From a virus, in the IMG/VR virus record IMGVR_UViG_3300042340_000379, positions 62,001 to 126,000 of that record: a stretch of DNA of 64,000 bases; one strand, 5' to 3'. The notes beneath the pieces were generated by a model. It made no database searches and was not told the origin of the DNA. It worked only from the letters and a program-made list of their open reading frames with translations. This document shows positions 16,524 through 54,698 of the stretch, piece after piece (within the stretch, counting starts at the first letter, position 1; the number at the start of each line of letters is the position of its first letter). The translations under genes were made by a program, and so were the position numbers.

Positions 16524-16538
16524 ATGCAAACAGATAAC

Positions 16539-18932
16539 ATGAGCCAAGCTATACAAGTTCCATATATTTCTCAAAAAGATATCCAGGAAGCATCTGTAGT
16601 CCATGAATTCCCAAAGTTTGGCCCTTTAGGCAGTGTTGTTGACTTGCGTACTTATCGACGTTGGTCAGATACAGACAACCGCCGCGAGAGTTTCTGGGAA
16701 CGGAATGCTCGCGTAGCTAACTATAATGCATCTCTTGCGTCAAAGCTCGATCGTCATGTAGAGCAAGATGCTAGAAAAGTATTTGATTTTATGAATCAAT
16801 TTCTAGCCTTTCCAAGTGGAAGAACAATGTGGGTTGGTGGAACAAAAGTCTCAGATGCCCACCCAGCTGCAAATTTCAATTGCAGTGCCCTCGCAATTAA
16901 CCGACTAGGTGCGTTTACAACCCTGTTTGAACTTCTTATGTTAGGAACAGGAGTCGGTTATAGAGTATTCTCTTCTGACATTAGCCAACTACCCAGCATA
17001 AAAGGGTACCCTAATTTGGTTCTTGAGGATTACGCTCCACTTAAAAAATCGAGCCGACAGCAAGAAACAACACAGCACCAAAACTCAGAAGAAGAAACAA
17101 TTTATGTGACTGTAGGGGACTCAAGGCGAGGCTGGATTCAGTCTGTTGAAATTCTACTCAATGTCTGGTTTGGAATTGATGAGAGTACAGAAAGGCCCAT
17201 TAAAAGAATCTCATTTAACCTAAATTCAATCAGACCCATGGGCGAGAGAATCCAAGGTTTTGGAGGAACTGCTTCCGGCCCAGAAGCTCTTGGAACTATT
17301 CTTACAAATATCCAAGATATTCTAAAAGAGTGCCCAACAAATAGACTCCGCAGTATTGACTGCATGGACATCTGTGACTGCATTGCTAAAGGCGTAGTTG
17401 CCGGTTCCTCACGGCGGTCAGCTCTGATCTGCCTATTTGAAGAAGGAGATGATTTGTGCGCCCACGCAAAACGGGGCCTATATAGCAATCCTGAAATGCA
17501 GAAGAAGCTGTATAGAAATCAATCTAATAACACAGAATGTGTTGGTAGTTCAAGGCTTCCAGCTTTTAGAGAGTTTCTAGAAAACAATCCTGACGCAGAC
17601 TGGTTCGATATAAAAAGTTTTATTGGGAAGCATCGCCCATCTATTGAATGGCTCAAAGATAGATTTGAAGTTGTAAAAGCAGAAGGAGAGCCTGGCTTTA
17701 ACAGCATTCTTATGATGGCAGCTAAGCGTTGGAAAGCAGTTAGAGAACACAGACCTGATTGCCCCGTAGAAGAAATCTGGGTTCGCTACTGTAATGTAGT
17801 CACAAACCCATGTCATGAGATTGTTTTATCAGCAGGGTACAGTGAAAAATTAGAGGACTGCGGAAAAGGAGTCTCCTTCTGTAACCTAACAACAATCCCT
17901 CTTCAAAATTACGTTGTAGATAAAAAGCTTCAAAAAGATCTTCTTAAAGAAGCAATCGAACTATGTGTTCGTATAGGGTTACGGCAAACCTGTGTCACCA
18001 TGCCAACTCAAGAACTCAACGAAACTCAAGCAGAAGAAAGGCTACTTGGAGTTAGCGCAACTGGCTGGAGAATGATGTTTGACCTCCTTGGCTGGACAAC
18101 AACATCAGGGGAAGTCAAAGATCTTCAAGCAGATATGAGAGCTTGGGCAAATAATGAAGCTACTCGGTATGCTTTAGAGTTGGGTGTTCCCAGGCCTCTG
18201 CTTGTCACATGTATTAAACCTGAAGGAACGTCTTCAAAAGTATTTGGCTCTACTGATGGTCTCCACTGGGATTGGGCAGAATACTATATTCGGCGCATTC
18301 AAATGTCTACAACTGATGCGTTAGCAAAAACTCTTAAAGCCCAGGGTTTCCCATGGAATCCTAAAGACTACGACATCAATTACCTAATTAAGCCTGAGAG
18401 TAAGCTAAACACTTGGCAAAAGATCGAAGTATTCAATGCGCTTTCTAACAAAGAAAAAGATGACATTTTTGAGCAATCAATGGCAGTTACATTTGATTTT
18501 CCGATTAAGTCACCAGCAAAGATAGCAAGTAGTTCTGTTTCTGCTATTGAGCAGCTAGAGAACATGCTCTCATTCTCAACTTGGTACACTGACCACATGC
18601 CATCCTCAACTATAACGGTGAAGGCTAATGAGTGGGATGGTGTAGCTAACTGGATTCACAACAATTGGACAGAGTACACGACCACGTCCATGTTCTCATA
18701 CTATAACGAGGCTCATCCTCTTCTACCGTATGAAGACATTACCAAGGAAGAGTACTACCAAATGCTGACTCAATTCAAGGAGAAATACAAACACCAATTC
18801 TCTGATGGACGAGTAACCTTTATGGTAGACGAAACACTGTTAGCCCAGAAAGAATACGAGGATGTTCTTAAAGGGCTAGACATTGATGAGTTATTAGATG
18901 CTGGGTGCTCTGTTGGATGTCCCATTCGATAA
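16539..18932 (+). CDS. nrdJ: Adenosylcobalamin-dependent (class II) ribonucleotide reductase
   Basis: Monomeric ribonucleoside-triphosphate reductase that makes dNTPs with a 5'-deoxyadenosyl radical from vitamin B12. Evidence: FPSGRTMWVGG, NFNCSALAI (substrate-site cysteine of the redox pair), GTGVGYRVF, the catalytic loop NPCHEIVL (about residue 424) and FCNLTTIPL, then TCIKPEGTSSKVFG, and a C-terminal redox pair in GCSVGCPIR. Length about 797 residues fits the Lactobacillus-type RTPR family. ATG at 16539 is preferred to 16524 because of a -10-like element directly upstream. It is followed by a hairpin terminator and then by a putative cobalamin adenosyltransferase gene that would provide its cofactor. 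Confidence 0.94.
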   Translation: MSQAIQVPYISQKDIQEASVVHEFPKFGPLGSVVDLRTYRRWSDTDNRRESFWERNARVANYNASLASKLDRHVEQDARKVFDFMNQFLAFPSGRTMWVGGTKVSDAHPAANFNCSALAINRLGAFTTLFELLMLGTGVGYRVFSSDISQLPSIKGYPNLVLEDYAPLKKSSRQQETTQHQNSEEETIYVTVGDSRRGWIQSVEILLNVWFGIDESTERPIKRISFNLNSIRPMGERIQGFGGTASGPEALGTILTNIQDILKECPTNRLRSIDCMDICDCIAKGVVAGSSRRSALICLFEEGDDLCAHAKRGLYSNPEMQKKLYRNQSNNTECVGSSRLPAFREFLENNPDADWFDIKSFIGKHRPSIEWLKDRFEVVKAEGEPGFNSILMMAAKRWKAVREHRPDCPVEEIWVRYCNVVTNPCHEIVLSAGYSEKLEDCGKGVSFCNLTTIPLQNYVVDKKLQKDLLKEAIELCVRIGLRQTCVTMPTQELNETQAEERLLGVSATGWRMMFDLLGWTTTSGEVKDLQADMRAWANNEATRYALELGVPRPLLVTCIKPEGTSSKVFGSTDGLHWDWAEYYIRRIQMSTTDALAKTLKAQGFPWNPKDYDINYLIKPESKLNTWQKIEVFNALSNKEKDDIFEQSMAVTFDFPIKSPAKIASSSVSAIEQLENMLSFSTWYTDHMPSSTITVKANEWDGVANWIHNNWTEYTTTSMFSYYNEAHPLLPYEDITKEEYYQMLTQFKEKYKHQFSDGRVTFMVDETLLAQKEYEDVLKGLDIDELLDAGCSVGCPIR

Positions 18933-20077: not shown

Positions 20078-21697
20078 ATGCCAGACACATCTTGGGACGC
20101 TATCTTCAACGCGACTCATACCATTCTTATTTCAGAATCAGGGAGAATCACCAAAAGCTCTCAAGGATTCGCTAATCTTCTAGGCTACACTCAATCAGCC
20201 TTAGAAGAAATGAACTATCGCAACATTGTCCATCTTGCTGATCGCGATCAAGATGAAGCTTTGTTTAAGGATCTTTTTAACGGAAACCAAACTCATTTTA
20301 ATTCCGAAGAGCGCTACATCCATAAAGAGGGATATACCATTTGGGTTCATATCATTAGCACTCTCTATGTTGAAGATGGGGCTAGGTTTATTGTAACTGT
20401 CCATGACATCACTACTCAAAAAGAGAAAGAGCTGTGTGTAGAACATTTATCTACACACGATGGTTTAACAAATCTCTACAACCGAGCCTTTTTCACAGAA
20501 TCCCTAAAGCAGACAATTGTAAAATGCTCGCGCTATTCTTGTGAAGACTATCTGTTCTACCTAGATATCAACACGTTTAAGCAAATTAATGACGACTATG
20601 GCCAAGAGGTCGGTGACCTCTGCTTAAAAATTATTGCCTCTAGGTTAACAAGTATATTTAGAAATACAGATGAAATCTTTAGAGTGAGCGGCGATGAGTT
20701 TGCCATCATTGTTCATAACGTCCAGAGTGAAGAAGCGCTTACGTACCTAATCTCAAGAATACAAAAAGAGCTTGATAAACCCATTCTCTCTGTAGCCAAC
20801 AACTTAACTGTTTCAATAACTCTGTCTCTCAGTCTGGGTGTGTGCAAACTAACTCATATATCCTCTCCATCAGATGCTCTCGCCATTGTTCAAAGATCTC
20901 TTCAGAAATCTAAAGCTGCGGAAGGGCAAACTATAGAGTGGGCATCATCTAAAGAAATCTATGAAGAGATAGAACTTGAACGGGAGATCCGTCAAGCAAT
21001 CCTCAAAGAAGACTTTGTTGTTTATTATCAGCCAATCAGAAATCTAAGTGACATGTCTCTCGCGGGGCATGAAGCGCTGCTCAGATGGCCTAAGAAAAAC
21101 ATATCCCCGATTACTATCTTAGAGATAGCCGAAAAGCTCAATCTAGTAGAACAACTTGAATGGAACTTATTTAAAAAGATTTTGAAGGTTGCTTCTTCTG
21201 AAGGGCTAGCCAAAAGATGGATTTCTGTTAATCTAAATTCACTGCTGCACGCTAAAAACTTTCGGGCAGAACTTACCCAACTTCTAAAAGACTACGATGT
21301 AAATCGAGACAGTATTGCGTTCGAGGTTATTGAAACTATCCGGCATAGCGACCCGGTTGTGCGCCTTTTAATAGACATTCAAAATGACGGCCACTCTCTT
21401 AAGCTAGATGACTTTGCACGCGATTATGCCTCGTTTGTATGGTTAAAGACACTCCCTCTAGATAGCGTAAAAATTGACCGTGAGTTTATCCACGGTATTG
21501 CTAAGGATAAACACAAAAAGCTGCAAGCTATCACCAGCGCTATGATTGATGTCTGCCACTCTCTTGGAATAAAGGTTGTCGCGGAAGGAATTCAAAGAGC
21601 TGATGATCTTGAGTGGCTAAAGCTAGCGGGCTGCGATCAAGGGCAGGGATTTCACCCATCTTTAGGAATACCTAGTAAAGATTTGCAGAAAAGATAG
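20078..21697 (+). CDS. PAS-GGDEF-EAL cyclic-di-GMP protein
   Basis: Bifunctional second-messenger enzyme, rare in phages. PAS-like sensor at about 1-115 (SESGRITKSSQGFANLLGY, HIISTLYVEDGARFIVTVHDIT). GGDEF domain at about 125-290: LDINTFKQINDDYGQEVGD for nucleotide binding, active loop SGDEF, and an RNTD placed five residues before it, matching the inhibitory RxxD site. EAL domain at about 300-535: EALLRW, VNLN, FEVIET, KLDDFA, VKID, VAEGI and GQGF, so the metal and catalytic residues of a phosphodiesterase are all in place (DDFA instead of the usual DDFG). No membrane segments, so cytosolic. It would set host c-di-GMP level during infection; direction of the net activity cannot be read from sequence. 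Confidence 0.93.
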   Translation: MPDTSWDAIFNATHTILISESGRITKSSQGFANLLGYTQSALEEMNYRNIVHLADRDQDEALFKDLFNGNQTHFNSEERYIHKEGYTIWVHIISTLYVEDGARFIVTVHDITTQKEKELCVEHLSTHDGLTNLYNRAFFTESLKQTIVKCSRYSCEDYLFYLDINTFKQINDDYGQEVGDLCLKIIASRLTSIFRNTDEIFRVSGDEFAIIVHNVQSEEALTYLISRIQKELDKPILSVANNLTVSITLSLSLGVCKLTHISSPSDALAIVQRSLQKSKAAEGQTIEWASSKEIYEEIELEREIRQAILKEDFVVYYQPIRNLSDMSLAGHEALLRWPKKNISPITILEIAEKLNLVEQLEWNLFKKILKVASSEGLAKRWISVNLNSLLHAKNFRAELTQLLKDYDVNRDSIAFEVIETIRHSDPVVRLLIDIQNDGHSLKLDDFARDYASFVWLKTLPLDSVKIDREFIHGIAKDKHKKLQAITSAMIDVCHSLGIKVVAEGIQRADDLEWLKLAGCDQGQGFHPSLGIPSKDLQKR

Positions 21698-24126: not shown

Positions 24127-24794
24127 TTAGCTTCAGCCGGTTTAATGGCGTAACCAACTTCTTTGGCGTCGAGCCCACCCTCAGTGGTGGGATTTCAATG
24201 ACTATCCACGCCGCTGAAGTTAACCATGACCTAAACCGTGATTGGTATTTTGGAAGATCGCGGCTTGTTGAAATTGAGATGAGCGCTCATCAATTTGCTG
24301 AACTCATCACAAATATGAATCGCGGGCCGGGTATTCCCTGCACAATCAAGCACATCGCGGGGCATGACATAGAAAAGTATGTCCCAATGCCTACCGTTAG
24401 AGAAAAGTTTGACGAAAATTTAACGGATAGTCTTTCTGAGCTTGAACGTAGGGCCGCAGCTCTTCATCAAGAAATTGCCGACCTCAAAAATGATAAAGGT
24501 AAAGCCGGTAAAAAAGATCTGGAAGTTCTTACTGGAAAAGCAGAGATGTTACTCAGGCAAATTAAGAGCAACCTGCCCTTCCTGACGCAATCGTTCTCAG
24601 AACAGCTGGACAACCAAGTGCTTAAAGCAAAGGTTGAGTTTACAGCCTATGTTGATAGTCAAGTCTACGCTCATGGGCTTGACGCCCTGGGAATTCAAGC
24701 AACCCTACCCGCCGCTGAAGAAAGTCCCGAGCAGGTTGACACTCCCCGACCTGAAGGTGCGGGGATTCTTGGTTCACTGACCGGACTTAACTAA
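24081..24794 (+). CDS. Hypothetical phage protein with an insertion-element-derived C-terminus
   Basis: 237 residues as it stands. The first 218 codons form a helical protein (SAHQFAELITNMNRGPGIPC, ERRAAALHQEIADLKNDKG). From 24736 on, the DNA is the right end of a TnpB element inserted on the opposite strand, so the last 19 residues (VDTPRPEGAGILGSLTGLN) are encoded by the element. Removing the element 24736-26045 joins codon 218 plus one base to ACCCAGTTTTTTGA and gives a short natural end, ...SPEQDPVF, stop. Function unknown. Confidence 0.75.
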   Translation: MSDKETRYEHSSYGLISFSRFNGVTNFFGVEPTLSGGISMTIHAAEVNHDLNRDWYFGRSRLVEIEMSAHQFAELITNMNRGPGIPCTIKHIAGHDIEKYVPMPTVREKFDENLTDSLSELERRAAALHQEIADLKNDKGKAGKKDLEVLTGKAEMLLRQIKSNLPFLTQSFSEQLDNQVLKAKVEFTAYVDSQVYAHGLDALGIQATLPAAEESPEQVDTPRPEGAGILGSLTGLN

Positions 24795-24860
24795 GCAGGA
24801 TTTCTCCAACTTAGTCAGAGGCTCAATCTCCCCAAGCGTTATAGTTTGGATCTGCCCGAC
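24716..24860 (-). ncRNA. Predicted omega/re-RNA of element 1
   Basis: TnpB proteins use an RNA from the element's right end followed by a guide from flanking DNA. Here the scaffold would overlap the tnpB 3' end, end at TCAA (24739-24736 on the minus strand), and the guide would be the next bases, 24735-24716 read on the minus strand. The 5' limit is approximate. Inference from family knowledge. Confidence 0.45.
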
Positions 24861-26045
24861 CCTACTTAATCCAAGTTTCAGGATGTTAATGGCTGCATTT
24901 ACGTCTCTATCTTCCATGTAGCCACAGTTAGGGCAAACGTGGGTTCTGACAGAGAGTGCTTTCTTAACTCTTGTTCCACAGTTAGAGCAATCTTGACTGG
25001 TATAGTGTGCGGGAACGGCGACAGCAATCTTTCCGTACTTACCAGCAAAATATTCTAACCATTTACGAAACGTTGACCATCCTGAATCACTAATCGACTT
25101 AGCTAGGTGGCGATTCTTAACCAACCCTTTCACATTCAAGTCTTCATAGGCGATCAAATCGTTAGATTGAACTAAACGCAGTGCCTTATTTTTAAGCCAC
25201 TCAACACGCTGCCTACTTACTCTTAAATGATTTAGGACGTACCGCTTTCTAGCTTTCTGATAGTTCTTGGATTGAGGTTTAGATCCTTTACGGAATTTCT
25301 TAGACTTTCTACGGTTGGCTCTATTCAACTGCTCCTCAGATTTGCGGTAAAACTTGGGGGATTCTACAAACTCGCCATTGCTAGTGGCGAAGAAGTATTT
25401 AATCCCTAAGTCAATCCCGACCGTGTTGTGGGTAGGCTCCGACTCTACTGTGCTGTCTGCCTGAATGCAGAATTGAACGTAGTAACCGTCAGCCCGCTTA
25501 ACCAAACGAACACGCTTGATCTGACTTTCATTATAGAAAGATAGATCATAGGTGCCAATTAAGCGTAACTCCCCAATATCAAAACCATCGGTAAACTTAA
25601 TCCGTTTTGGCTCAAGTAACTTCCATCCAGAGGTTTTGTATTCTACTGAACGTCCATTCTTTTTGAACTTAGGGAATCCTTTCTTACCCTTGGTTTTCTT
25701 TTTGCAGTTGTCATAGAACCGACTGATTGAACTCCAAGCCCTCTCAGCCGAAGCTTGCCGAGCCATAGAGTTGAGTTTTTTAGCAAACGGAAATTCCTCA
25801 GCTAACTCCTTGCAGAGTTTGTTGAGATCATATTTTCCTACTTTCTCATTATCCATCCAGTAACGAAGCGCTTTATTCCTCACGAATTGACTCGTGCGAA
25901 TGGCTTCGTCAATAGCTGACGATTGAGAAGGTTTTGTCCGTGCTTTGAACTCTAGTACAATCATATTCTTATGCTAACAGCTTCAGCATAAAATGACAAC
26001 AAAATAGCTAATTAACTAAGCCGTCCTAGAAGGACGGGGTTTTAG
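24736..26045 (-). mobile_element. TnpB-only IS200/IS605-type element 1
   Basis: Bounded by TCAA at the right end (TTGA on the plus strand, 24736-24739) and by TGGGT on the left flank (ACCCA at 26046-26050 on the plus strand). The right end has GAATCCCC...GGGGAGTGTCAA with a hairpin; the left end has the hairpin CCGTCC-TTCT-AGGACGG at about 26022-26038. No TnpA (Y1 transposase) gene is present, so movement needs TnpA in trans. It interrupts the gene at 24081. Elements 2 and 3 share the same end motifs. Confidence 0.85.
24774..25964 (-). CDS. tnpB: TnpB RNA-guided nuclease (intact)
   Basis: 396 residues. RuvC-type catalytic residues: Asp in VGIDLGIKYFF (about 187), Glu in IAYEDLNVKGL (about 272), Asp in EDRDVNAAINI (about 351). 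Four-cysteine zinc finger: CSNCGTRVKKAL then CPNCGYMEDRD. Basic N-terminal wedge region rich in Lys. TnpB cuts DNA matching its guide next to the transposon-associated motif and so helps the element keep its site after excision. All key residues are present, so it may be active. Its 3' end overlaps the plus-strand host gene by 21 bases. Confidence 0.93.
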   Translation of the reverse strand: MIVLEFKARTKPSQSSAIDEAIRTSQFVRNKALRYWMDNEKVGKYDLNKLCKELAEEFPFAKKLNSMARQASAERAWSSISRFYDNCKKKTKGKKGFPKFKKNGRSVEYKTSGWKLLEPKRIKFTDGFDIGELRLIGTYDLSFYNESQIKRVRLVKRADGYYVQFCIQADSTVESEPTHNTVGIDLGIKYFFATSNGEFVESPKFYRKSEEQLNRANRRKSKKFRKGSKPQSKNYQKARKRYVLNHLRVSRQRVEWLKNKALRLVQSNDLIAYEDLNVKGLVKNRHLAKSISDSGWSTFRKWLEYFAGKYGKIAVAVPAHYTSQDCSNCGTRVKKALSVRTHVCPNCGYMEDRDVNAAINILKLGLSRVGQIQTITLGEIEPLTKLEKSCLVKSGQ

Positions 26046-26091
26046 ACCCAGTTTTTTGATAAACTAGAAGGGTAGCATTCCACGCTCTTCT

Positions 26092-26313
26092 ATGTATGAC
26101 ATCTTGTTCAACTGGAAATCAGGAACCGTTAGATACAGACTCACAGAGCTTGTATTAGTTCCTGTTTCTGTTCTAGCGTGCGCTTTTATGGCGGGCTTAG
26201 TATTCTTTCTTGTCTATAAGCTAATTGGGCTTATCCTCAGCCTTTTTCTGGTCAGCCCAATTAGTCTCGCCATTATTATCTTCGGAGGAATTGTATGGAA
26301 AAAGACGGTGTAG
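26092..26313 (+). CDS. Small membrane protein, two transmembrane segments
   Basis: 73 residues; hydrophobic stretches at about 19-44 and 46-69 nearly fused (VPVSVLACAFMAGLVFFLVY, LILSLFLVSPISLAIIIFG). Overlaps the next gene by 19 bases. Unknown role. Confidence 0.6.
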   Translation: MYDILFNWKSGTVRYRLTELVLVPVSVLACAFMAGLVFFLVYKLIGLILSLFLVSPISLAIIIFGGIVWKKTV

Positions 26314-26570
26314 AAAAATATCCGCTTGGAGTCCTGGTTAAAGAGAATTTTCAGTGGGTATTTCACGTTGAGAATTCAGAGAACTATTATCTGTATTTAG
26401 AACTTCGTAAGGGCAGCGATGACATTCGAGTGACTCGAGTATGCACTCTTCGCAATCATGCTGGAGATACGATTTTAGATATTGGGTTTTATACATCCGA
26501 GAAATTCATTGAGTTATGTGAGCGGAATTGCTCAGGAAAACTTTTAGAAGGAGTCGAATTTTTCGGCTAA
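26295..26570 (+). CDS. Small hypothetical protein
   Basis: 91 residues, strand-rich (WVFHVENSENYYLYLELRKG, IRVTRVCTLRNHAGDTILDIGF). GGAGGAA before the start is a good ribosome binding site. Not recognised. Confidence 0.6.
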   Translation: MEKDGVEKYPLGVLVKENFQWVFHVENSENYYLYLELRKGSDDIRVTRVCTLRNHAGDTILDIGFYTSEKFIELCERNCSGKLLEGVEFFG

Positions 26571-26591
26571 GCAAACCCTACCTACTTACCC

Positions 26592-26732
26592 ATGTCCCTA
26601 CTTAATCAAAACTCCATGACAAACTACTGGTGGGACTGCCCCTCTTGTGGAACCACCAAAATCTCTTCTGTGCTTCACTCAGAAAATGGGGAGATTTTAG
26701 GAGCCACAATGTGCTGCCCCGAATGTTCTTAC
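26592..26732 (+). pseudogene. 5' part of a zinc-ribbon gene split by TnpB element 2
   Basis: 47 codons: MSLLNQNSMTNYWWDCPSCG then about 20 residues and CCPECSY, a CxxC...CxxC zinc ribbon. The open frame runs on into the element, but everything after 26732 is element DNA. It joins exactly in frame to 28220 if element 2 is removed, giving a 116-residue protein. As it stands the product would be the ribbon plus an element-encoded tail. Confidence 0.65.
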
Positions 26733-26860
26733 TTGATACTCCCCGCCCTAAAGAGACGTGGATTCTTGAGCAATCCAAATTTGGATTCTCAAAGGCGCAA
26801 TCAAAGCACCCCTACTGACTCCATCGAGGTTGACCCTCAACTTTGCCGCTACTTTTCTCA
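26713..26860 (-). ncRNA. Predicted omega/re-RNA of element 2
   Basis: Right-end hairpin and TCAA as in element 1; the guide would be 26732-26713 on the minus strand, matching the interrupted zinc-ribbon gene. Probably without a working partner because this tnpB is frameshifted. Approximate 5' limit. Confidence 0.4.
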
Positions 26861-28219
26861 GGATATTCGCCGCGCCATTGCAGTCAGCGTTGATCTTGAT
26901 GCCATCTTTAGATCGATACAGACCACGCTTAACCCGCTTACCAGACTCTTGCCACCCTTCGGGTTTTGCACCGAATGTAGGTAGTTCATCTTGGTCGATA
27001 AAGCTGGCTTTACTAGCGTAGCTTTCCTCAGTCTCGACAAAAACGATCCCGTACTGCTCACATAATTGAGCGATCCGATCCTTTAGTCGGCCTGTTGGGA
27101 TCTGGACAAACTTTTGATTTGTCTTGCTACCCAGGTTGATTCCTTGGCGCTGCCCCTGGTTCCAACCAAAAACAACAGAGCCGATCCTTTTCTCAATGCA
27201 ATGGTTGATCACAATCCGGGCTGTTTTATTTACAGCATCCCTAACTTGACGGTTTCTCTTCTCAGTAATCCCGGCTAGCTGCTTAGACCAAAAACCCTGT
27301 GGTTGATTTTCCTTAAGGATCGAAACCCTTTTGTTATACCACTGGTTCAAAGACTTTAAGTGCAGGCCATCCACAAAAAAGGACGTGCCCACATTGCTGA
27401 CACAAGTGATCCAGTTATTCAGACCTGGGTCAATCCCCAGCACGTTAGCGGGGTCTACGTCAGTCTTTACTGGCTCTACCTTATAGATCAATTCAAGGTA
27501 GAAAACACCATTCCTAGGCAAAATCCGATATTCCCGGATCGACTTAAAATCAAGGTTTGTGGGCATTGGCATATAGAAGGCGTCTAAGCCAAACCACGCT
27601 TTAACCTGACGACCCAGGGGGAACCGTAGACCTTCAGGCTTTAACTCAACGTCAGCCCCTGGGTAGGTGACTAAGTTTAACCCAGGCTTCCGGTAGTTTG
27701 GCAGCTTAGGCTTCTGAGAGACTGTCCCTTTTTCACGCCTTTTAGCAAACCGAAGAAGGACTTAAAAGACTCTGCTACTGTGGTCAAACATTGCTGGGAA
27801 ACGTGAGACTGCATCGCCTTAAAATGGGGGTTCCCTTTTAACTCACGGTGTAAATCAAACTTGGACGGAGCTTTACCTATCTTGAAGTAAAGTTGACGAG
27901 ACAAATAGGTACCACAGTTATGTAGCTTATTTGACTCCCCACAAAGAAACTCAAGGACTCCTTTTAGCTGGGGGTCTGGGTTGATTAAAACTTGCTGGCA
28001 TCCAAACATATTGTTTTATTCCCTCCTATCTCTTATAATAGCATAGTGTTATTACTTTAGGGGCACAATGCCAACAAAAAAACATCCTATCCCTGCTTAC
28101 CTAGATGATGCAGAATTTCAGATGCTAAGGAAGATCGCAGAAGACTGGGGCTGTAGCCTATCGGCAGCAATTAAGCGATTAATCCGGGAAGAAAGCCGTC
28201 CTGAAGGACGGGGCTTGTG
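26733..28219 (-). mobile_element. TnpB-only IS200/IS605-type element 2 (decayed)
   Basis: Right end TCAA at 26736-26733 (minus strand) preceded by GAATCC...GGGGAGTA; left end hairpin CCGTCC-TTC-AGGACGG at about 28197-28211 (plus-strand form GCCGTCCTGAAGGACGG), flank TGGGT (ACCCA at 28220-28224 on plus). Carries a frameshifted tnpB on minus and a small ribbon-helix-helix-like gene on plus. No tnpA. It splits the zinc-ribbon gene. Confidence 0.85.
26748..28009 (-). pseudogene. tnpB: Frameshifted tnpB of the rearranged-glutamate type
   Basis: The N-terminal part is read from 28009 to about 27720 (MFGCQQVLINPDPQLKGVL ... SFFGLLKGVKKG). Continuation is in another frame (VSQKPKLPNYRKPGLNLV, then LDFKSIREYR and LGIDPGLNNWITCVS) to 26748, so one indel near 27710-27730 breaks the gene. 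The usual RuvC-II Glu is replaced in VVFGWNQGQRQG; a Glu in VETEESYASKASF probably takes its place, as known for a subset of TnpBs. The second CxxC zinc finger is missing. The last Asp is in NADCNGAANI. Non-functional unless the shift is a sequencing error or programmed. Confidence 0.85.
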
Positions 28220-28220
28220 A
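28068..28220 (+). CDS. Small ribbon-helix-helix-like protein in TnpB element 2
   Basis: 50 residues (starts MPTKKHPIPAYLDDAEFQML, then IAEDWGCSLSAAIKRLIREE), the strand-helix-helix plan of CopG/Arc-type DNA-binding proteins. Divergent from the tnpB on the other strand, with TATAAT at about 28034. The last ten codons and the stop are made by the element's left-end hairpin, so a bound protein or transcription here would affect the transposon end. Similar small genes accompany TnpB in cyanobacterial elements as far as I recall; role unproved. Confidence 0.6.
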   Translation: MPTKKHPIPAYLDDAEFQMLRKIAEDWGCSLSAAIKRLIREESRPEGRGL

Positions 28221-28426
28221 CCCATTTATTTAGTGAGCTCACAATTCGGGAAGCTTTGAATATAGACAGGACTAAAGAAACATCAGCAGCCGTTGATAAA
28301 ATTCTCTCTCGCATAGTTGGAATGGGCACCTCTGTTGACACGCCCTTCCTCGAAATGCAAGAAGCAGATTATGATAAAGCCTGCTTAATAGCTGAGCATG
28401 TTCTAGAAGAAATGGAAATAAACTAA
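28220..28426 (+). pseudogene. 3' part of the zinc-ribbon gene split by TnpB element 2
   Basis: 68 codons from ACC at 28220 (THLFSELTIREALNIDRTKE ... HVLEEMEIN), in frame with 26592-26732 once element 2 is removed. A GTG at 28217, made by the element end, could let this half be translated alone as 69 residues. Helical; the tail overlaps the next gene by one base. Confidence 0.6.
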
Positions 28427-28758
28427 TGAAACTCAATGATCCCAAGCGCACAACCTGGCCTTATGAGTATGCTTATGGCCTTAATCGCAAAGCTTGTACA
28501 GACCCAACCCAGTTTAGCCATCACTCATATGACCTTCATAGATTAAAAGATAACCCTCTAGAGGCTCAAGCACTTCAGAAGTGGATTGAGATTAACAAAC
28601 GCTCAGATATTCTCGCCTACCTTCTTTCAGACAAAGTAAATGAAGCTCAACATGACAGGCTAAGCCAGCGCGATCTAGAAGTCGCCGCCACGCTTATGCA
28701 ATGGCTTGGCAGTCCTGTTGGGCAAGGATTCTTGCGTGACGCAGGGCTCAAAGACTAA
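28426..28758 (+). CDS. Hypothetical protein
   Basis: 110 residues, helical and charged (EAQALQKWIEINKRSDILAY, SQRDLEVAATLMQWLG). Starts on the last base of the previous stop codon (TAATG). Followed by a strong terminator. Not recognised. Confidence 0.65.
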   Translation: MKLNDPKRTTWPYEYAYGLNRKACTDPTQFSHHSYDLHRLKDNPLEAQALQKWIEINKRSDILAYLLSDKVNEAQHDRLSQRDLEVAATLMQWLGSPVGQGFLRDAGLKD

Positions 28759-28775
28759 CAAAACGTCACATCTTC

Positions 28776-28811
28776 AAAAAAGCCACCTCTGATTTCTAGA
28801 GGTGGCTTTTT
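28776..28811 (+). terminator. Strong intrinsic terminator
   Basis: AAAAAGCCACCTCT (28777-28790), loop GATTTCT, AGAGGTGGCTTTTT: 14-bp perfect stem with T-tract. Confidence 0.92.
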
Positions 28812-28813
28812 GC

Positions 28814-29240
28814 TAAACGGCTGAGAAAAATGGATAACAAGGCTGATAAGAATAGACATAGGAGGTTTAAGTTGAAACTTAGTCTATAGTTTAACCCACT
28901 TTTAAGTAAAGCAGTAAGTAACGCTTTAGTGATATCAACGTCAAGTGCCTAAAACTTATAGCTGACAAGACTTTCAAAATCAACATAATCCTCTGGTGCT
29001 ACCTGCGCAGTAGCACTAGGAAAACAAAAAACTTCTTAGCTTATAAAAGTTGAGAGCCGTGGAACCCTTGATGTGTCTACGTTCCAGCCTTATAAATATA
29101 AAAGGCAGTTCTAAACACAGGATAAGGATAGACAAAAATTCGTAGAAATTAGTAAAAATCTGCGCCTATTTAAGGAAATTTTTAAGTAAGGGGTTTTTCC
29201 TTAATGTTGGGCAGATGCTTGAAAAGGCAAGAGTGTAAGA
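28814..29240. other. Non-coding region rich in hairpins, upstream of the recombinase
   Basis: No open frame longer than a few dozen codons. It holds the hairpin GTGCTAC-CTGCGCA-GTAGCAC (28996-29016), a GGAAC...GTTCC pair near 29060-29095, GCCTT...AAAGGC near 29090-29110, and AAGGAAA...TTTCCTT at about 29174-29201. Candidates are a structured RNA, the promoter region of the following genes, or the phage attachment site, which is often next to the recombinase gene. None can be chosen from sequence alone. Confidence 0.4.
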
Positions 29241-29270
29241 TTGGAAAGAACATCTAGAGAAAAATCTCCT

Positions 29271-29582
29271 ATGCTATCCCTAGCCAAAGCGTTTGCAATC
29301 CTGAGCATTATGAACAACCTGAAAGGCGAATATGATAAAGCTATGAAAGATGGTGAGCTGACTTTTGAAGAGCTCAGTGACCTTATCATTGGTTTTATCG
29401 TCGGCCTTGCCAAAGCCCTTATGCCCAGCATGCCCGATCAAGTTGTTGCAAAGCTAGAGGCTCTTGTCGAATCTCTAGCAAATTCCAAAGAAAAAGTTGA
29501 AGCTCGAGTTATGGAAGTGACCGCAATTCTTGATAAAGCCGACGGGGTTTACGAGAAGTTTCAGGCCCAAGTTCGAGCCTAG
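29271..29582 (+). CDS. Small helical hypothetical protein
   Basis: 103 residues from the ATG at 29271 (MLSLAKAFAILSIMNNLKGE); a TTG ten codons earlier is less likely. Amphipathic helices (LSDLIIGFIVGLAKALMPSM, VVAKLEALVESLANSKEKVEA) suggest a helical bundle or membrane-associated protein. Not recognised. AAATCTGGTTTTACCAGA (a small hairpin) follows at about 29613. Confidence 0.65.
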   Translation: MLSLAKAFAILSIMNNLKGEYDKAMKDGELTFEELSDLIIGFIVGLAKALMPSMPDQVVAKLEALVESLANSKEKVEARVMEVTAILDKADGVYEKFQAQVRA

Positions 29583-29632
29583 CTTAAAGGCGGTCTCCTT
29601 AAGCAAATGCTAAAATCTGGTTTTACCAGAAC

Positions 29633-30976
29633 ATGGCAAGTAGTATTGAGGCCGACTTAAATCGGGCTAACGAACAGCTTAAATCAGAGAGGGTTTCCGT
29701 TAAGATTAAACGTCGCGGGAACGCTCTCTTTTTAGTTGGTACCCTCCCACCTAAACCTTCCTCTAAAAAACAAAAGCCTCACCAACAAGAAATCTCTCTC
29801 AAGAAACTTCAAGCAGAACACGCCAATATTCTTTACGCGCAAGAACAGGCCCGCCGAGTTGATAGAGACCTGAAGAACAGTAAGTTTGATTGGAGCGAAT
29901 ACTCTTCTAAAATCTATGCAGAAACCCACAAAACAATTGGGGTACTTCTAGAAGAGTTTAAAAAAGACTATTGGCAAATGCACCCAAAAGGTAAGACTAG
30001 CGAGATTAACTGGCATAGATCCTACTGGGCTTTCTTTAAAAAATTAGACTTAAAAGCAGAACTTAGCCTCAAAGAACTTATTAAAGTTATTGAGAAATAC
30101 GAGCCTGATACTCAGAGCCGGTCAAAGTGCTGCCAAAAATTTGTAAAGTTTGCTGAGTGGTGCGATCTACCTACGTCTGACATTAGAAAAATCCGCTCTC
30201 TAAAAGGAAAGTACGGAATCTCCAAAACTAGAAAAAGAAAAATCCTAACTGATCAACAAATTGTAGATCTTAGAGTTCAAATTCCTCCCGGCCCCCTGAG
30301 ATGGATGTTTGAAGTCTTAGTCGTGTGGGGACTTAGACCCCACGAGGTCTATGAGATTGATATGGAGAAACTTGCGGTAGAACGAGACGGCATTATAACA
30401 GTTTTTAGCCAAAAGACTAAACGGGAGCGCATTGTATCAGCCATTTACCCTGAATGGTTTAAGAGGTGGGAGTTGTGGAAAGGAATGCCACCTCCCACCA
30501 ACAGAGAAAGAGAAAAAGGCAAAACAGTTACTTACTACTTTAAGAAACTCAACCTCGAAATTTATCCTTATGATCTAAGGCATGCTTGGGCTGTTAGAGC
30601 TCTCTACTACCCAAAAATTGATGAGGCTCAAGCCGCCGCTCAGATGGGGCATTCTCTAAAAATCCACCAACAAGTTTACGAATACTGGATTACAGAGCAA
30701 CGAGCTCGAGCAGAACAACTTAAGAGAATGTACGGAGATGAAAAGATTGAGGTTCCTGACGACCCTCCAGAAGGAGATTACCGGCAAATTCGCCTTAAAG
30801 ACGACCCCCTTAACGCGGAACGCCACCCACAAAACTACTCTTTAATCCCATGCCCAAAGTGCGGGTCAAACTCAGTCATCTGGAATGGCTGGGCGATCAA
30901 CCAAGATAAACTTTATGGGCGCAGACAGAAATGCCAAGTATGTAATTTCATCAAGACGATCAAGCCCACAGCTTAG
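29633..30976 (+). CDS. Tyrosine recombinase/integrase with C-terminal zinc ribbon
   Basis: 447 residues. N-terminal SAM-like core-binding region at about 100-190. Catalytic domain: Arg I in VWGLRPHEVYEID (about 233), the beta-hairpin Lys in SQKTKRER, box II YPYDLRHAWA (about 312; the usual HxxR begins with His, here Tyr), MGHSLKIHQQVY (His/Trp-type position), and nucleophile Tyr near VYEYW (about 348-350). A zinc ribbon follows at about 406-440 (CPKCGSNSVIW ... CQVCNF), unusual for phage integrases. It would integrate or resolve phage or mobile DNA. Convergent with an HTH gene that could be its directionality factor. Confidence 0.85.
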   Translation: MASSIEADLNRANEQLKSERVSVKIKRRGNALFLVGTLPPKPSSKKQKPHQQEISLKKLQAEHANILYAQEQARRVDRDLKNSKFDWSEYSSKIYAETHKTIGVLLEEFKKDYWQMHPKGKTSEINWHRSYWAFFKKLDLKAELSLKELIKVIEKYEPDTQSRSKCCQKFVKFAEWCDLPTSDIRKIRSLKGKYGISKTRKRKILTDQQIVDLRVQIPPGPLRWMFEVLVVWGLRPHEVYEIDMEKLAVERDGIITVFSQKTKRERIVSAIYPEWFKRWELWKGMPPPTNREREKGKTVTYYFKKLNLEIYPYDLRHAWAVRALYYPKIDEAQAAAQMGHSLKIHQQVYEYWITEQRARAEQLKRMYGDEKIEVPDDPPEGDYRQIRLKDDPLNAERHPQNYSLIPCPKCGSNSVIWNGWAINQDKLYGRRQKCQVCNFIKTIKPTA

Positions 30977-31235
30977 CGCAAGCCTCTACGTTGTACTCGT
31001 AATGAGTATACTTTGGCAGCGGCTGACCGCGCTTGAATTTTGTACTATGCAAAATTCGGAAGTGAGTTCCGGGCTTTAGATACCCACTCTGCCGATAGGC
31101 TTTTAGGGTTGAAGGGCTGACTTTCAGCAGTTTCGCCGCCCGCCCAGGCTTCATCCAGCCAGCAGCCTGACCCGGCAGGTTGGCTTGGCTTAGTCTCTTA
31201 ACAAGCTCAACTAAAAATTCGTCGTTCGCTATCAT
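30960..31235 (-). CDS. Excisionase/MerR-like helix-turn-helix protein
   Basis: 91 residues with a winged-helix type HTH: KPGRAAKLLKVSPSTLKAYR followed by SGYLKPGTHFRIL, typical of excisionases and MerR-like proteins that contact DNA with the wing. Overlaps the recombinase 3' end by 17 bases, convergent, and is divergent from the DUF932 gene 24 bases away. A near-copy (one mismatch) of the phage palindrome lies inside the gene at 31039-31053. Best guess: recombination directionality factor. Confidence 0.65.
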   Translation of the reverse strand: MIANDEFLVELVKRLSQANLPGQAAGWMKPGRAAKLLKVSPSTLKAYRQSGYLKPGTHFRILHSTKFKRGQPLPKYTHYEYNVEACAKLWA

Positions 31236-31259
31236 TGTCCTTCTTAAGCTATTATTGAT

Positions 31260-32651
31260 ATGACCCTTTCACAAGATACTAACCCCATGTTTGACGACCA
31301 ACAAGCTACAAGCCCCGCTCTCACTTCCACTCCCTATGATGAAAATGGTCAACCTATTGGCTATCAATGGACTGGTGTAATTACCGGGGCCATGGTTCAC
31401 GGAGACCAAAGTGTTGTTAAAGGCTCAAAAACTTTACAGACCGAATCAACCGCCCTGCGCGACGAAACCAGCGCTACAGACATGAATCTGTACTACGGTC
31501 AAGAGCGGGACTTTATCGGCACCCCTATCGCAACTTCTGTGGATGAGCCAGATGCGGCCAAGTCTATCCTGAATGAAGCTGGCCTGAACTGGCCTGTTCA
31601 CACTCTTGATGGACTAACCGGCTCTTGGGAATACGCCAACAAGCGCGTACCTCGCCACGTCTACCGACTAGTTCCTGGCAAAATGGTCACTAGCGCTGGT
31701 CTACCTACTACTGACCCCGAACAAGCTGATCATGAGCGCTCAGGGAAAAAGCTATTCACTGTTGCGGTTAGTGATCGCTGGAAGCCTGTTCAAAACGATC
31801 GTCTGATTGAGGACATTGTCACCTTTGCCAAAGAGAGTAACACCCAAATCCAACGAGTGGGTACCCTAATGGACGAGACTAAAGTCTTCGCTGTGCTTGA
31901 CGTGGGTGAGGATTTTGTTCTGCGTAATGAAGACCGCACAACCGCAAAGATGATCGTCAGCAATACTCACTGTCCTGGTGGCTTAGACTTCCGTCTTATG
32001 GCCCTTCGCCAAGTTTGCAGCAATACGTTGGTGAACCCTGTTCGCTTGAAGACCAAGAAAATGACGCACGTAACCAACATTACGAGCACTCAAATTCTGG
32101 CTGTGATGCGGGCGATGCGCTCTGAGTTTGAAGGCTTCCATGTTGGAGCTGAACTTACCTCTCAGGTTCCCTCCACTCTTAGTTCGCTAGGCACCATGGC
32201 CAACTACCAAGACAAAGTCTTTAAGGTTCGAGCCTTTGCGCTGGAAAAGTTTGGCAGCAAGAACACTGATGGTACTCCCAAAGCTATGGCTGAACAGCCT
32301 GTATGGCTGCGTGAGATGATCAAAAACGACGAGCATCTTCTGGCCAGCATCGTTGCTATTGCAGCAGTGAAGAAAACCAGTCCCTCTCAATTTGAGCATG
32401 ACACTGAGTTTGAGAATCTCCCTCAAGCCTACAAAGACATCATGGGTCTTTACCAAAAAGAGACCCTCATCAGCAGCTTTAACACTGTCTGGGGAGCGGT
32501 AAACGGAGTGACCGGCTATGTCGATCACTTCTCTCGGACTCGCAACGGGTTGGAAGGCCACTACCAGTCCAACTGGTACGGGGCCAAAGCTGGTGCTAAA
32601 ATGGAAGCGTTCAAAACAGCCCAAACTGTTTCGGCTATGGTTCTAGCCTAG
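31260..32651 (+). CDS. DUF932 family phage/plasmid protein
   Basis: 463 residues. The middle and C-terminal parts match the DUF932 pattern: DRLIEDIVTFAKES, GTLMDETKVFAVLDVG, MIVSNTHCPGGLDFRLMALR with VCSNTLVNP, then HVTNITSTQILAVMRAM and a long helical tail. DUF932 proteins are common in phages and plasmids and are of unknown function, often near recombination or replication genes. The ATG at 31260 is used; another in frame is at 31287. Confidence 0.85.
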   Translation: MTLSQDTNPMFDDQQATSPALTSTPYDENGQPIGYQWTGVITGAMVHGDQSVVKGSKTLQTESTALRDETSATDMNLYYGQERDFIGTPIATSVDEPDAAKSILNEAGLNWPVHTLDGLTGSWEYANKRVPRHVYRLVPGKMVTSAGLPTTDPEQADHERSGKKLFTVAVSDRWKPVQNDRLIEDIVTFAKESNTQIQRVGTLMDETKVFAVLDVGEDFVLRNEDRTTAKMIVSNTHCPGGLDFRLMALRQVCSNTLVNPVRLKTKKMTHVTNITSTQILAVMRAMRSEFEGFHVGAELTSQVPSTLSSLGTMANYQDKVFKVRAFALEKFGSKNTDGTPKAMAEQPVWLREMIKNDEHLLASIVAIAAVKKTSPSQFEHDTEFENLPQAYKDIMGLYQKETLISSFNTVWGAVNGVTGYVDHFSRTRNGLEGHYQSNWYGAKAGAKMEAFKTAQTVSAMVLA

Positions 32652-32660
32652 GTTAATTTT

Positions 32661-32692
32661 GTATCGTACAAGAATTGATTCTTGTGCGATAC
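32661..32692 (+). repeat. Inverted repeat between DUF932 gene and tRNA
   Basis: GTATCGTACAAGAAT (32661-32675) and ATTCTTGTGCGATAC (32678-32692) with one G-U type mismatch: a 15-bp stem with almost no loop. No T-tract. It overlaps a one-mismatch copy of the phage palindrome (32658-32672). Could be an RNA processing hairpin before the tRNA or a protein-binding site. Confidence 0.6.
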
Positions 32693-32696
32693 TCAA

Positions 32697-32769
32697 GCCG
32701 TGTTAGCTCAGTTGGTAGAGCAGTTGGCCTGTACCCAACGTGTCGCGGGTTCGAGCCCTGCATACGGCT
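32697..32769 (+). tRNA. tRNA-Thr (UGU) with C33
   Basis: Cloverleaf: acceptor GCCGTGT/ATACGGC (one G-U), D arm GCTC/GAGC, anticodon stem GTTGG/CCAAC, T arm GCGGG-TTCGAGC-CCTGC, discriminator T, no encoded CCA. The seven-base anticodon loop CCTGTAC places TGT at positions 34-36, so Thr reading ACA; A37 fits. Position 33 is C instead of the near-universal U. Reading GTA (Tyr) would give U33 but breaks the anticodon stem and lacks the long variable arm of bacterial tRNA-Tyr. Confidence 0.8.
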
Positions 32770-32789
32770 TTAACAATCAATAAGAAAAT

Positions 32790-32852
32790 ATGAATATCAC
32801 AATACGGCACTGCCTGCGATCTGTAGAAGAAAGAATCATCGAAGAAATGGGT
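32790..32852 (+). pseudogene. Possible small gene interrupted by TnpB element 3
   Basis: ATG at 32790 gives MNITIRHCLRSVEERIIEEMG up to the element boundary. With element 3 removed the frame continues RRVKQSR and stops at 34141-34143, a 28-residue peptide. As it stands the frame runs into the element and stops near 32903. Too short to be sure it is a gene. Confidence 0.3.
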
Positions 32853-34119
32853 CTGAAACCCCGCCGTTTTAGGGCGGCTTGCATTTTACGTGCTAGAATG
32901 TGAGCATGACACAGAAAGCGTTTAAGTACCGATTCTATCCAACACCTGAGCAGGAATCTTTGCTCAGGCGAACGATGGGCGGCACCCGTCTTGTCTATAA
33001 CCGAGCACTGGCCGCAAGGACTGAAGCTTGGTATGAACGACAGGAACGGGTGGGGTACGTTGAAACGTCGGCTATGCTCACCGAATGGAAAAAAGATGAA
33101 AGTCTTTTGTTCCTGAATGAAGTGAGTTGTGTGCCTCTGCAACAAGGGTTGCGGCATCTGCAAACCGCCTTCACAAATTTCTTTGCGGGTCGGGCGAAAT
33201 ATCCCAACTTCAAGAAGAAGAGGAATGGTGGTAGTGCTGAGTTCACCAAGTCAGCGTTTAGGTTCAAGGACGGTCAGGTATTCCTGGCCAAGTGCTCTGA
33301 ACCATTGCCGATTCGCTGGAGTCGTGCCCTGCCTGAGGGTGCTGAACCCTCCACAATAACGATCAAGCTGACTCCCTCTGGGAAGTGGTTTGTCTCGTTG
33401 TTGGTGGATGTTGAGATTGAACCTTTGCCTACGGTTATGGCCAAGATCGGCCTTGACCTGGGCATCAATAGTTTGTTGGCGCTGAGCACTGGGGAGAAGG
33501 TCGCCAACCCGAAGATCTTTCGGGCTAAGCACAAAGCTCTCAAGAAAGCTCAGAAAGCGCTGGCACGTAAGCAGAAAGGGTCTAACAATCGCTACAAGGC
33601 ACGGCTCAAAGTAGCCCGTGCTCACGAAGCGATTGTCAACGCCCGCAAAGATTTCCTTCACAAGCTGACAACTCGATTGGTGCGCGAAAACCAAACCATC
33701 GCCGTCGAAGACTTGGCTGTGAAGAATATGGTGAAGAACCGTAGCCTCGCCCTCTCCATCAGTGATGCGAGTTGGGGTGAGTTGGTTCGGCAGCTTGAGT
33801 ACAAGTGCGATTGGTACGGCAGGGAATTGGTCAAGATTGACCGTTGGTTCCCATCCTCGAAGCGGTGCAGCCAATGCGGCCACACCGTCGAAAAACTGCC
33901 TCTCAACATTCGCTCTTGGGATTGCCCTAGTTGTGGTGCTCACCATGATCGGGATGTCAATGCTGCAAAAAATGTCTTGGCCGCTGGGCTAGCGGTGTCA
34001 GTCTGTGGAGCGACCGTAAGACCCGAACAGAGTAAGTCTGTGAAGGCTGGTGCTACGAAGCAGAAAAACTCCTGAGCGATCAGGGGAATCCCCTTCCTTT
34101 AGGTGGGGGAGCATGTCAA
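32853..34119 (+). mobile_element. TnpB-only IS200/IS605-type element 3
   Basis: Left flank TGGGT (32848-32852); left-end hairpin CCGCC-GTTTTA-GGGCGG at about 32861-32876; right end GAATCCCC...GGGGGAGCATGTCAA, ending at 34119. No tnpA. By eye it is richer in G and C than the flanking phage DNA, which suggests a more recent arrival than element 2. Confidence 0.85.
32906..34075 (+). CDS. tnpB: TnpB RNA-guided nuclease (intact)
   Basis: 389 residues from the ATG at 32906 (a GTG two codons earlier is possible). Starts MTQKAFKYRFYPTPEQESLL, the standard TnpB/OrfB opening with RFYPTxEQ. Catalytic Asp in IGLDLGINSLLAL (about 184), Glu in IAVEDLAVKNMV (about 268), Asp in HDRDVNAAKNV (about 348). Zinc finger CSQCGHTVEKL and CPSCGAHHD. 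All key residues are present. It follows the tRNA and interrupts a short frame. Confidence 0.94.
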   Translation: MTQKAFKYRFYPTPEQESLLRRTMGGTRLVYNRALAARTEAWYERQERVGYVETSAMLTEWKKDESLLFLNEVSCVPLQQGLRHLQTAFTNFFAGRAKYPNFKKKRNGGSAEFTKSAFRFKDGQVFLAKCSEPLPIRWSRALPEGAEPSTITIKLTPSGKWFVSLLVDVEIEPLPTVMAKIGLDLGINSLLALSTGEKVANPKIFRAKHKALKKAQKALARKQKGSNNRYKARLKVARAHEAIVNARKDFLHKLTTRLVRENQTIAVEDLAVKNMVKNRSLALSISDASWGELVRQLEYKCDWYGRELVKIDRWFPSSKRCSQCGHTVEKLPLNIRSWDCPSCGAHHDRDVNAAKNVLAAGLAVSVCGATVRPEQSKSVKAGATKQKNS

Positions 34120-34139
34120 CGAAGAGTTAAACAATCACG
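33990..34139 (+). ncRNA. Predicted omega/re-RNA of element 3
   Basis: Scaffold from the tnpB 3' end through the right-end hairpin (GAATCCCC/GGGGGAG) to TCAA at 34119; the guide would be 34120-34139. The 5' limit is approximate. Inference from the TnpB family. Confidence 0.45.
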
Positions 34140-54393: not shown

Positions 54394-54698
54394 AACGTTC
54401 CGCCATTAATAAACGAGCTTCTATAATACTCCGTTCCGTTAGCATTCGATGTCACAAAGCTTGCGTAGGTTGCGTTAGTACTTAAAGGCACCTCCAAAAA
54501 ATCCTCAGCGGCAGTAATTTCTAAATAAGTATCTTCAGCATCTTGGGTTGTTAAAAAATCCTCAATACCTGAGTTTGGTGCATAGTTATCTTTAATAAAA
54601 GACAAGACGGCCCTCACCCGTGCAGGCGTAATAAAGTTCTCAACGTTGTCAGGAAGATTGGTTGTAATTAACGCTTGAAGGTCTTCTGGTTCAGCCAT
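54390..54698 (-). CDS. Small tail-fibre-associated protein
   Basis: 102 residues. The N-terminal LQALITTNLPDNVENFITPA and RVRAVLSFIKDNY follow the motif of phage fibre/structural proteins (LP.N....ITP...R..L..I..N). Overlaps the terminase start by 8 bases. Role inferred. Confidence 0.55.
   Translation of the reverse strand: MAEPEDLQALITTNLPDNVENFITPARVRAVLSFIKDNYAPNSGIEDFLTTQDAEDTYLEITAAEDFLEVPLSTNATYASFVTSNANGTEYYRSSFINGGTF

Follow-up and report, generated by a model that had tools for sequence, protein, structure and literature searches.

The window analysed here, a stretch of 64,000 nucleotides spanning bases 62001-126000 of a 207,855-bp IMG/VR virus record (IMGVR_UViG_3300042340_000379), carries three loci for the guide-RNA nuclease TnpB, named E1, E2 and E3. 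Two of them, E1 and E3, are very probably non-autonomous members of the IS200/IS605 family residing in a cyanophage, with tnpB and its omegaRNA lying between IS605-type ends and no gene for the transposase TnpA; E2 is very probably a decayed third. The record is that of a large cyanophage, a virus of cyanobacteria, whose terminase stands at ~31% to that of the Microcystis phage Ma-LMM01 group. A preliminary description, made from the letters alone, had proposed three TnpB-only elements with the same ends, beginning beside TGGGT and finishing with TCAA. The elements belong to a known kind, their left boundary having been misread, and the useful results are the corrected ends, a readable target/guide code and units made of omegaRNA only.

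Three TnpB loci and their features

A tblastn search of the complete record with the TnpB proteins as queries recovers these three TnpB loci and no others. Their features are listed below in window positions, a caret marking each element edge.

24736..26058, minus: element E1, 1323 bp, TnpB-only, IS200/IS605-type, corrected ends TTAT^CAAAAAACTGGGT...GTGTCAA^, guide AAAA at +16 (family logo; empty-site rule of relatives)
24774..25964, minus: E1 TnpB, 396 amino acids (aa), intact, RuvC DLG / YEDL / DRD (Pfam PF01385, PF07282; alignment to solved TnpB chains)
24736..24868, minus: E1 omegaRNA region, tnpB 3' end plus right end (covariance model R1, 38.6 bits, E 3e-7)
26059..26062, minus: E1 left target tetranucleotide TTAT, predicted transposon-associated motif (TAM) (covariation)
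26046..26050, minus: E1 TGGGT box, internal at +9 to +13 (motif position, family logo)
24736-24739, minus: E1 right-end TCAA (motif scan)
24716..24735, minus: E1 predicted guide CCTGCTCGGGACTTTCTTCA (sequence after TCAA)
26733..28232, minus: element E2, 1500 bp, decayed, TCAC^TAAATAAATGGGT...TATCAA^, left edge good to ~1 nt only, guide CAAG at +16, a single C:C mispair with the target
26748..28009, minus: E2 tnpB, frameshifted, open reading frames (ORFs) 27677-28009 and 26748-27572 (the intact relatives kac68 and L119 align by tblastn in two frames that meet at GVKKG/TVSQ)
26733..26843, minus: E2 omegaRNA region, weak (R1, 22.9 bits, E 0.002)
28233..28236, minus: E2 left tetranucleotide TCAC (position next to the corrected end)
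28220..28224, minus: E2 TGGGT box, internal (motif scan)
26733-26736, minus: E2 right-end TCAA (motif scan)
26713..26732, minus: E2 predicted guide GTAAGAACATTCGGGGCAGC (sequence after TCAA)
28068..28220, plus: small ribbon-helix-helix-like ORF in E2, 50 aa, divergent from tnpB (RHH_7 below cut-off)
32840..34119, plus: element E3, 1280 bp, TnpB-only, corrected ends TCAT^CGAAGAAATGGGT...CATGTCAA^, guide GAAA at +16 (empty site of a 72%-identical relative)
32900..34075, plus: E3 TnpB, 391 aa, intact (Pfam PF12323, PF01385, PF07282; TnpB 8h1j, E 3e-81)
33959..34119, plus: E3 omegaRNA region (R1, 31.1 bits, E 2e-5)
32836..32839, plus: E3 left target tetranucleotide TCAT, predicted TAM (empty site of relative, code)
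32848..32852, plus: E3 TGGGT box, internal (motif scan, family logo)
34116-34119, plus: E3 right-end TCAA (motif scan)
34120..34139, plus: E3 predicted guide CGAAGAGTTAAACAATCACG (sequence after TCAA)

The three loci stand as first described, with tnpB intact in E1 and E3 and split in E2. The E1 and E3 proteins retain the three RuvC acidic motifs and the C-terminal TNB domain in an uninterrupted ORF; E2 has no intact nuclease gene, its tnpB being broken by a single -1 shift at AAAAAGGG, as located against two intact relatives. The TGGGT and TCAA motifs lie where they had been placed and exceed chance. The left box TGGGT-NN-NAARCCCCGYC has exactly three copies in the record and none in 60 random genomes with matched dinucleotide composition, and the right-end pattern GAATC...GGGGAG...TCAA has six, three of them beyond those first reported, against 0.05 expected. 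All three elements carry this right end, in which TCAA closes an IS200/IS605-type GAAT-hairpin-TCAA arrangement; a hairpin folds for each, weakly for E2 and E3. The sharing of ends therefore holds on the right side, and the true left tetranucleotides differ (TTAT, TCAC and TCAT).

The small ribbon-helix-helix-like ORF of E2 occupies the place held by TnpA in other members, and the arrangement recurs beside TnpA-less relatives in the Nodularia phages kac68v161 and kac65v151.

Position of the left end

The left boundary was assessed with a comparison set of 80 cyanobacterial loci whose TnpB is 70-83% identical to that of E3. When these loci are aligned on TGGGT, conservation reaches 12 nt farther out (TYAT-C-RRAAAA-nn-TGGGT) and then ends. 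Empty sites of relatives in Microcystis phages, Planktothrix and Nostoc place the edge at the same point, since the insertions join at TCAT^...TCAA^ or TTAT^...TCAA^, 13 bp outside the TGGGT boundary. In the Microcystis phage MaMV-DH01, a 72%-identical relative of E3 reads ATATCAT^CGAAAATTTGGGTCTGAAACCCC...GATGTCAA^CAGTGTAG, in short form TCAT^CGAAAATTTGGGT...TCAA^CAGTG, and the syntenic empty site of MaMV-CH02 reads ACATCAT^CAGTGTAG, i.e. TCAT^CAGTG. The flanks of a Planktothrix insertion (L101), joined as TTCAT^AACCT, are ungapped over 240 nt in two genomes and match at 99.6-100% in a Planktothrix genome. Of two Nostoc insertions, one (L074) joins as TTAT^ACCAG without gaps in six genomes and the other (L073) as TTAT^AATT in four genomes, with small indels away from the junction. 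Because the element begins with C and the right flank with A in both L101 and L074, there is no ambiguity in placing the cut after TCAT or TTAT. In these relatives, insertion thus takes place 3' of the tetranucleotide, without target duplication.

Two E1-like elements give less clean pictures. In MaMV-DH01 the right junction is clean (empty site TTTAT^TTAGAAG) and the left flank is rearranged; in the Nodularia phages kac68 and kac65 the element lies between TTTAT and its flank, and the empty counterpart has 75 extra bases ending in CTTAT, which fits TTAT without being clean.

From the relatives' empty sites, TGGGT is internal to the element, at +9 to +13, and had been set beside a left edge drawn 13 bases too far in. 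The comparison with empty-site relatives that the preliminary description had proposed as its own check yields joins matching TCAT^CGAAAATTTGGGT...TCAA^ and not TGGGT^...TCAA^; nor can TGGGT be the left cleavage site and TAM, the empty sites joining at TCAT^ or TTAT^. For the phage elements themselves, the predicted empty-site junctions are TTTAT^CCTGCTCGG for E1 and ATCAT^CGAAGAG for E3.

A target/guide code at the left end

IS608 recognises its left site TTAC with the guide AAAG, through the pairs A+16:T-3 and A+17:T-4 (PMC5934647). The present family follows the same rule. The four bases preceding the element and the four preceding the left hairpin pair without exception as TCAT/GAAA (36 cases), TTAT/AAAA (20) and TTAC/AAAG (2), in a count where the left-end pattern missed 32 of 93 sequences. 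Fisher's test gives 1e-15 for TCAT/GAAA against TTAT/AAAA, a value overstated since related sequences are not independent. Target and guide are spaced by 15 nt in 33 of 57 sequences, 14 in 13 and 16 in seven, and exactly 15 in each of E1, E2 and E3. Two relatives of E3 have CTCC in place of TGGGT, with TCAT at a shorter spacing.

The code is intact in E1 (TTAT/AAAA) and E3 (TCAT/GAAA), and one pair is broken in E2 (TCAC/CAAG). E2 looks decayed, this mispair fitting its frameshift. From the E2 guide CAAG, a cognate target TGAC was predicted before any TGAC locus was looked up. In a search of 292 cyanobacterial genomes, TGAC precedes 17 left ends matching TGGGT-n-CAAGCCCCG, giving the pair TGAC/CAAG as predicted. 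Among the 30 CAAG-box loci, eight lack TNAY and are instead preceded by another conserved sequence (AGCGGAACA or the like), and five are likely chance matches in coding sequence. As the TAM of ISDra2 is the target site of its TnpA (PMC8612924), the TAM is predicted to be TTAT for E1 and TCAT for E3.

Source of the transposase

The Y1_Tnp domain (PF01797) is absent from the whole record, and a TnpA profile search of it gave no match either. Because TnpA is lacking, E1-E3 are non-autonomous derivatives and not complete IS605 elements, and we infer that they are TnpB-only members of IS200/IS605 that depend on TnpA supplied in trans; the dependence on an outside transposase suggested at the outset is likely to be correct. 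None of 80 bacterial E3-family loci has an adjoining TnpA within the flanks examined, so mobilisation in trans appears to be the normal state of this lineage. TnpA matches are present in all 15 tested cyanobacterial genomes with E3 relatives (in one, a single weak match). In Microcystis wesenbergii (L150), a TnpA+TnpB element has the left end TTAT^CGAAAATTTGGGTTAAAACCCC, the right end TCAA, the same box and the E1 code.

In the mechanism that we propose, a Y1 (HUH) TnpA would act in trans, coming most likely from the host cyanobacterium or from a co-resident element. It would read the left end by pairing of the guide at +16 to +19 with the target (TTAT for E1, TCAT for E3) and cleave directly after the target tetranucleotide and directly after TCAA, TGGGT serving as a box of the left-end structure within the element. 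Once expressed, TnpB with an omegaRNA from its own 3' end would cut phage copies lacking the insertion, beside TTAT or TCAT, and recombination would restore the element. This proposed role of cutting insertion-free copies, by which the element would be restored or driven, follows work on ISDra2 (PMC8612924) and on plasmids (PMC11870625).

Alternative readings

Several observations weigh against our reading. Neither an empty site of the phage's own E1, E2 or E3 nor a close relative of the phage was found: a nucleotide search of phages gave no match, and queries with a DUF932 protein, the thymidylate synthase and the gene interrupted by E2 fared likewise. The boundaries of E1-E3 are consequently derived from relatives and from the code. 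Part of the record may be missing, and TnpA could sit in that part. As to E2, its code is mismatched, it starts with T, unlike nearly all relatives, which start with C, and the TGGGT boundary, unlike TCAC, leaves an open frame of 115 aa across the site.

The best surviving alternative, which we nevertheless regard as unlikely, is that the elements are immobile remnants, old arrivals now fossilised or kept for another phage role such as that of a domesticated nuclease. It would account for a record without TnpA and for the frameshift and broken code of E2. It fits poorly with the intact TnpB of E1 and E3, RuvC motifs included, with their right-end motifs and intact code, and with a family that is mobile in bacteria, where it shows presence and absence between related genomes and has TnpA-bearing copies.

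An element starting directly after TGGGT, with this motif as left cleavage site and TAM, is most improbable and, for the E3 family, already refuted. TGGGT is indeed common to the three elements, and E2 joined there regains its in-frame ORF, yet in the empty sites of four relatives' insertions the 13 bp through TGGGT lie inside the element, conservation extends upstream of the motif, and the guide/target code functions with the outer boundary only. The joined ORF was considered as proof of the TGGGT boundaries and rejected, the E2 case having about a one-in-three probability by chance and E3 preferring the outer boundary (a joined ORF of 36 vs 28 aa). A plasmid cleavage assay with TGGGT as the motif, as once proposed, is expected to fail and to yield a false negative.

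It is hardly credible that E1 and E3 are TldR-like, i.e. nuclease-dead TnpB acting as guide-RNA repressors in the phage, for although phage-encoded TnpB derivatives of such kind exist (PMC13418256), both retain the three acidic RuvC motifs whose loss would be expected, and the guides of E1-E3 match only their own flank, with no other site in the record at <=4 mismatches.

OmegaRNA and stand-alone units

For the non-autonomous elements proposed here, the right-end RNA was described with a covariance model, R1 (alignment A1), trained on the right-end RNAs of TnpB elements from cyanobacteria together with two phage units and showing compensatory change at 15 of 29 pairs. R1 matches end exactly at TCAA in E1, E3 and E2, so the guide coordinates deduced earlier from the right ends (24735-24716 and 26732-26713, minus; 34120-34139, plus) are unaffected and stand. 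An Rfam search of the window region and of the loci L001/L002 returned tRNA only.

Outside the window, the two phage units (A and C, the L001/L002 pair) lie between genes and have no tnpB:

record 14404-14569 (~14380-14569 for the unit), plus: stand-alone omegaRNA unit (R1, 116.7 bits, E 2e-26)
record 28070-28235 (~28070-28254 for the unit), minus: stand-alone omegaRNA unit (R1, 116.7 bits, E 2e-26)

Both belonged to the training set of R1, so the 116.7 bits are not independent evidence; blastn independently finds them 70-83% similar to bacterial loci. The units are ~190 bp long and 97% identical, each with TATAAT upstream, and different guides follow TCAA, ATCTATTTTGCATCGCTATA and ATCTCTATGGTGTAAATGTT. 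Relative to the bacterial ones, their first hairpin carries paired substitutions (G-C to U-A at columns 11/52) and the coding frame has disappeared, a pattern expected if it is the RNA, rather than the protein, that is retained. No recognisable left end is present in units A and C. Units A and C could serve a TnpB in trans. A third extra right end without tnpB is located at record 193960-194064, plus (L008 8060-8164; R1, 30.5 bits).

Such units extend to bacteria. R1 matches 56 of 194 bacterial genomes; out of 30 loci inspected, five show no similarity to TnpB within the flanks covered and several more only a stretch overlapping the RNA. One cyanobacterium (G171) harbours a 178-nt insertion in four identical copies, each consisting of left end, omegaRNA and right end, without any protein gene (L273-L276, positions 443-620 in the element's orientation). 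Each copy follows TGAC, has CAAG at +16 and ends with TCAA; the four copies lie in four different flanks and have four different guides, and the genome encodes TnpA and TnpB elsewhere. We tentatively suggest, at slightly less than even confidence, that these are guide-RNA-only mobile elements, with IS605 ends and a complete omegaRNA, which would borrow TnpA and TnpB in trans and acquire a new guide at each insertion site.

Two further R1 matches were noted, one in the Nodularia phage kac65v151 (L116 23288-23375), with no annotated transposase over the match, and one in the IMG/VR virus 3300032431_000001 (L120 5958-6075), where TnpB was not matched nearby; both may be more stand-alone units. 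In MaMV-DC (L114, ~25430-25456), a short palindrome GACACTCCCCG...CGGGGAGTGTCAA stands where Ma-LMM01 has a TnpA+TnpB element, as if it were a bare right-end hairpin.

Comparison with known systems

E1, E3 and their relatives share with IS608 of Helicobacter pylori the right cleavage site TCAA (CR) with its guide GAAT (GR), a 4-nt left guide from +16 and a preference for C after the cleavage site (PMC5934647). Unlike IS608, E1-E3 have no tnpA and the targets of E1 and E3 are TTAT or TCAT instead of TTAC; the TGGGT box is an addition not described in the passages on IS608 that were consulted. Cyanobacterial TnpB-only (IS1341-type) elements have the same ends as E3 and the TnpB similarity given above; E1-E3 differ from them by residing in a phage. 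In E2, the TGGGT-type left end is joined to a TnpB lineage in which the other members, most of them with TnpA, lack it, this left end being absent from 20 relatives of E2 TnpB. The likeness to ISDra2 TnpB and its omegaRNA (reRNA) lies in the RuvC nuclease, the right-end guide RNA and a TAM equal to the left target (PMC8612924); in contrast to the TTGAT of ISDra2, the TAM predicted for E1 and E3 is TTAT or TCAT, and their activity is predicted from sequence.

The Microcystis and Nodularia phages MaMV-DH01 and kac65v151 hold relatives of E1 (53-65%), E2 (69%) and E3 (72%) in several places per genome, although they belong to another phage lineage than the source phage (terminase 31% to Ma-LMM01). 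Like PATE/MITE-type IS200/IS605 derivatives, the 178-nt G171 element has ends without tnpA or tnpB; unlike them, it and phage units A and C retain a complete omegaRNA.

Other features of the window

A tRNA-Thr (anticodon TGT, 32696-32770) lies directly upstream of the small ORF interrupted by E3. The phage also encodes a class II (B12-dependent) ribonucleotide reductase (16524-18932), a PAS-GGDEF-EAL protein with cyclic-di-GMP signalling domains, all three domain types above Pfam cut-offs (20078-21697), a protein of 4401 aa whose only Pfam match is an N-terminal staphylococcal-nuclease domain (40287-53492), and a terminase-like protein with an intein bearing a LAGLIDADG homing endonuclease (54691-57954).

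Significance

The pairing of a TNAY target with an NAAR guide at about +16 allows the target, and hence the likely TAM, to be read from the left end of any member of the family. The omegaRNA-only units are the part of these results that reaches beyond the known kinds. Stand-alone omegaRNAs of IscB have already been described, and a limited literature search found no published account of IS605 derivatives keeping a complete omegaRNA. In these units the guide RNA persists, and in one bacterium spreads, without a nuclease gene, so that the sharing of guides between elements becomes testable.

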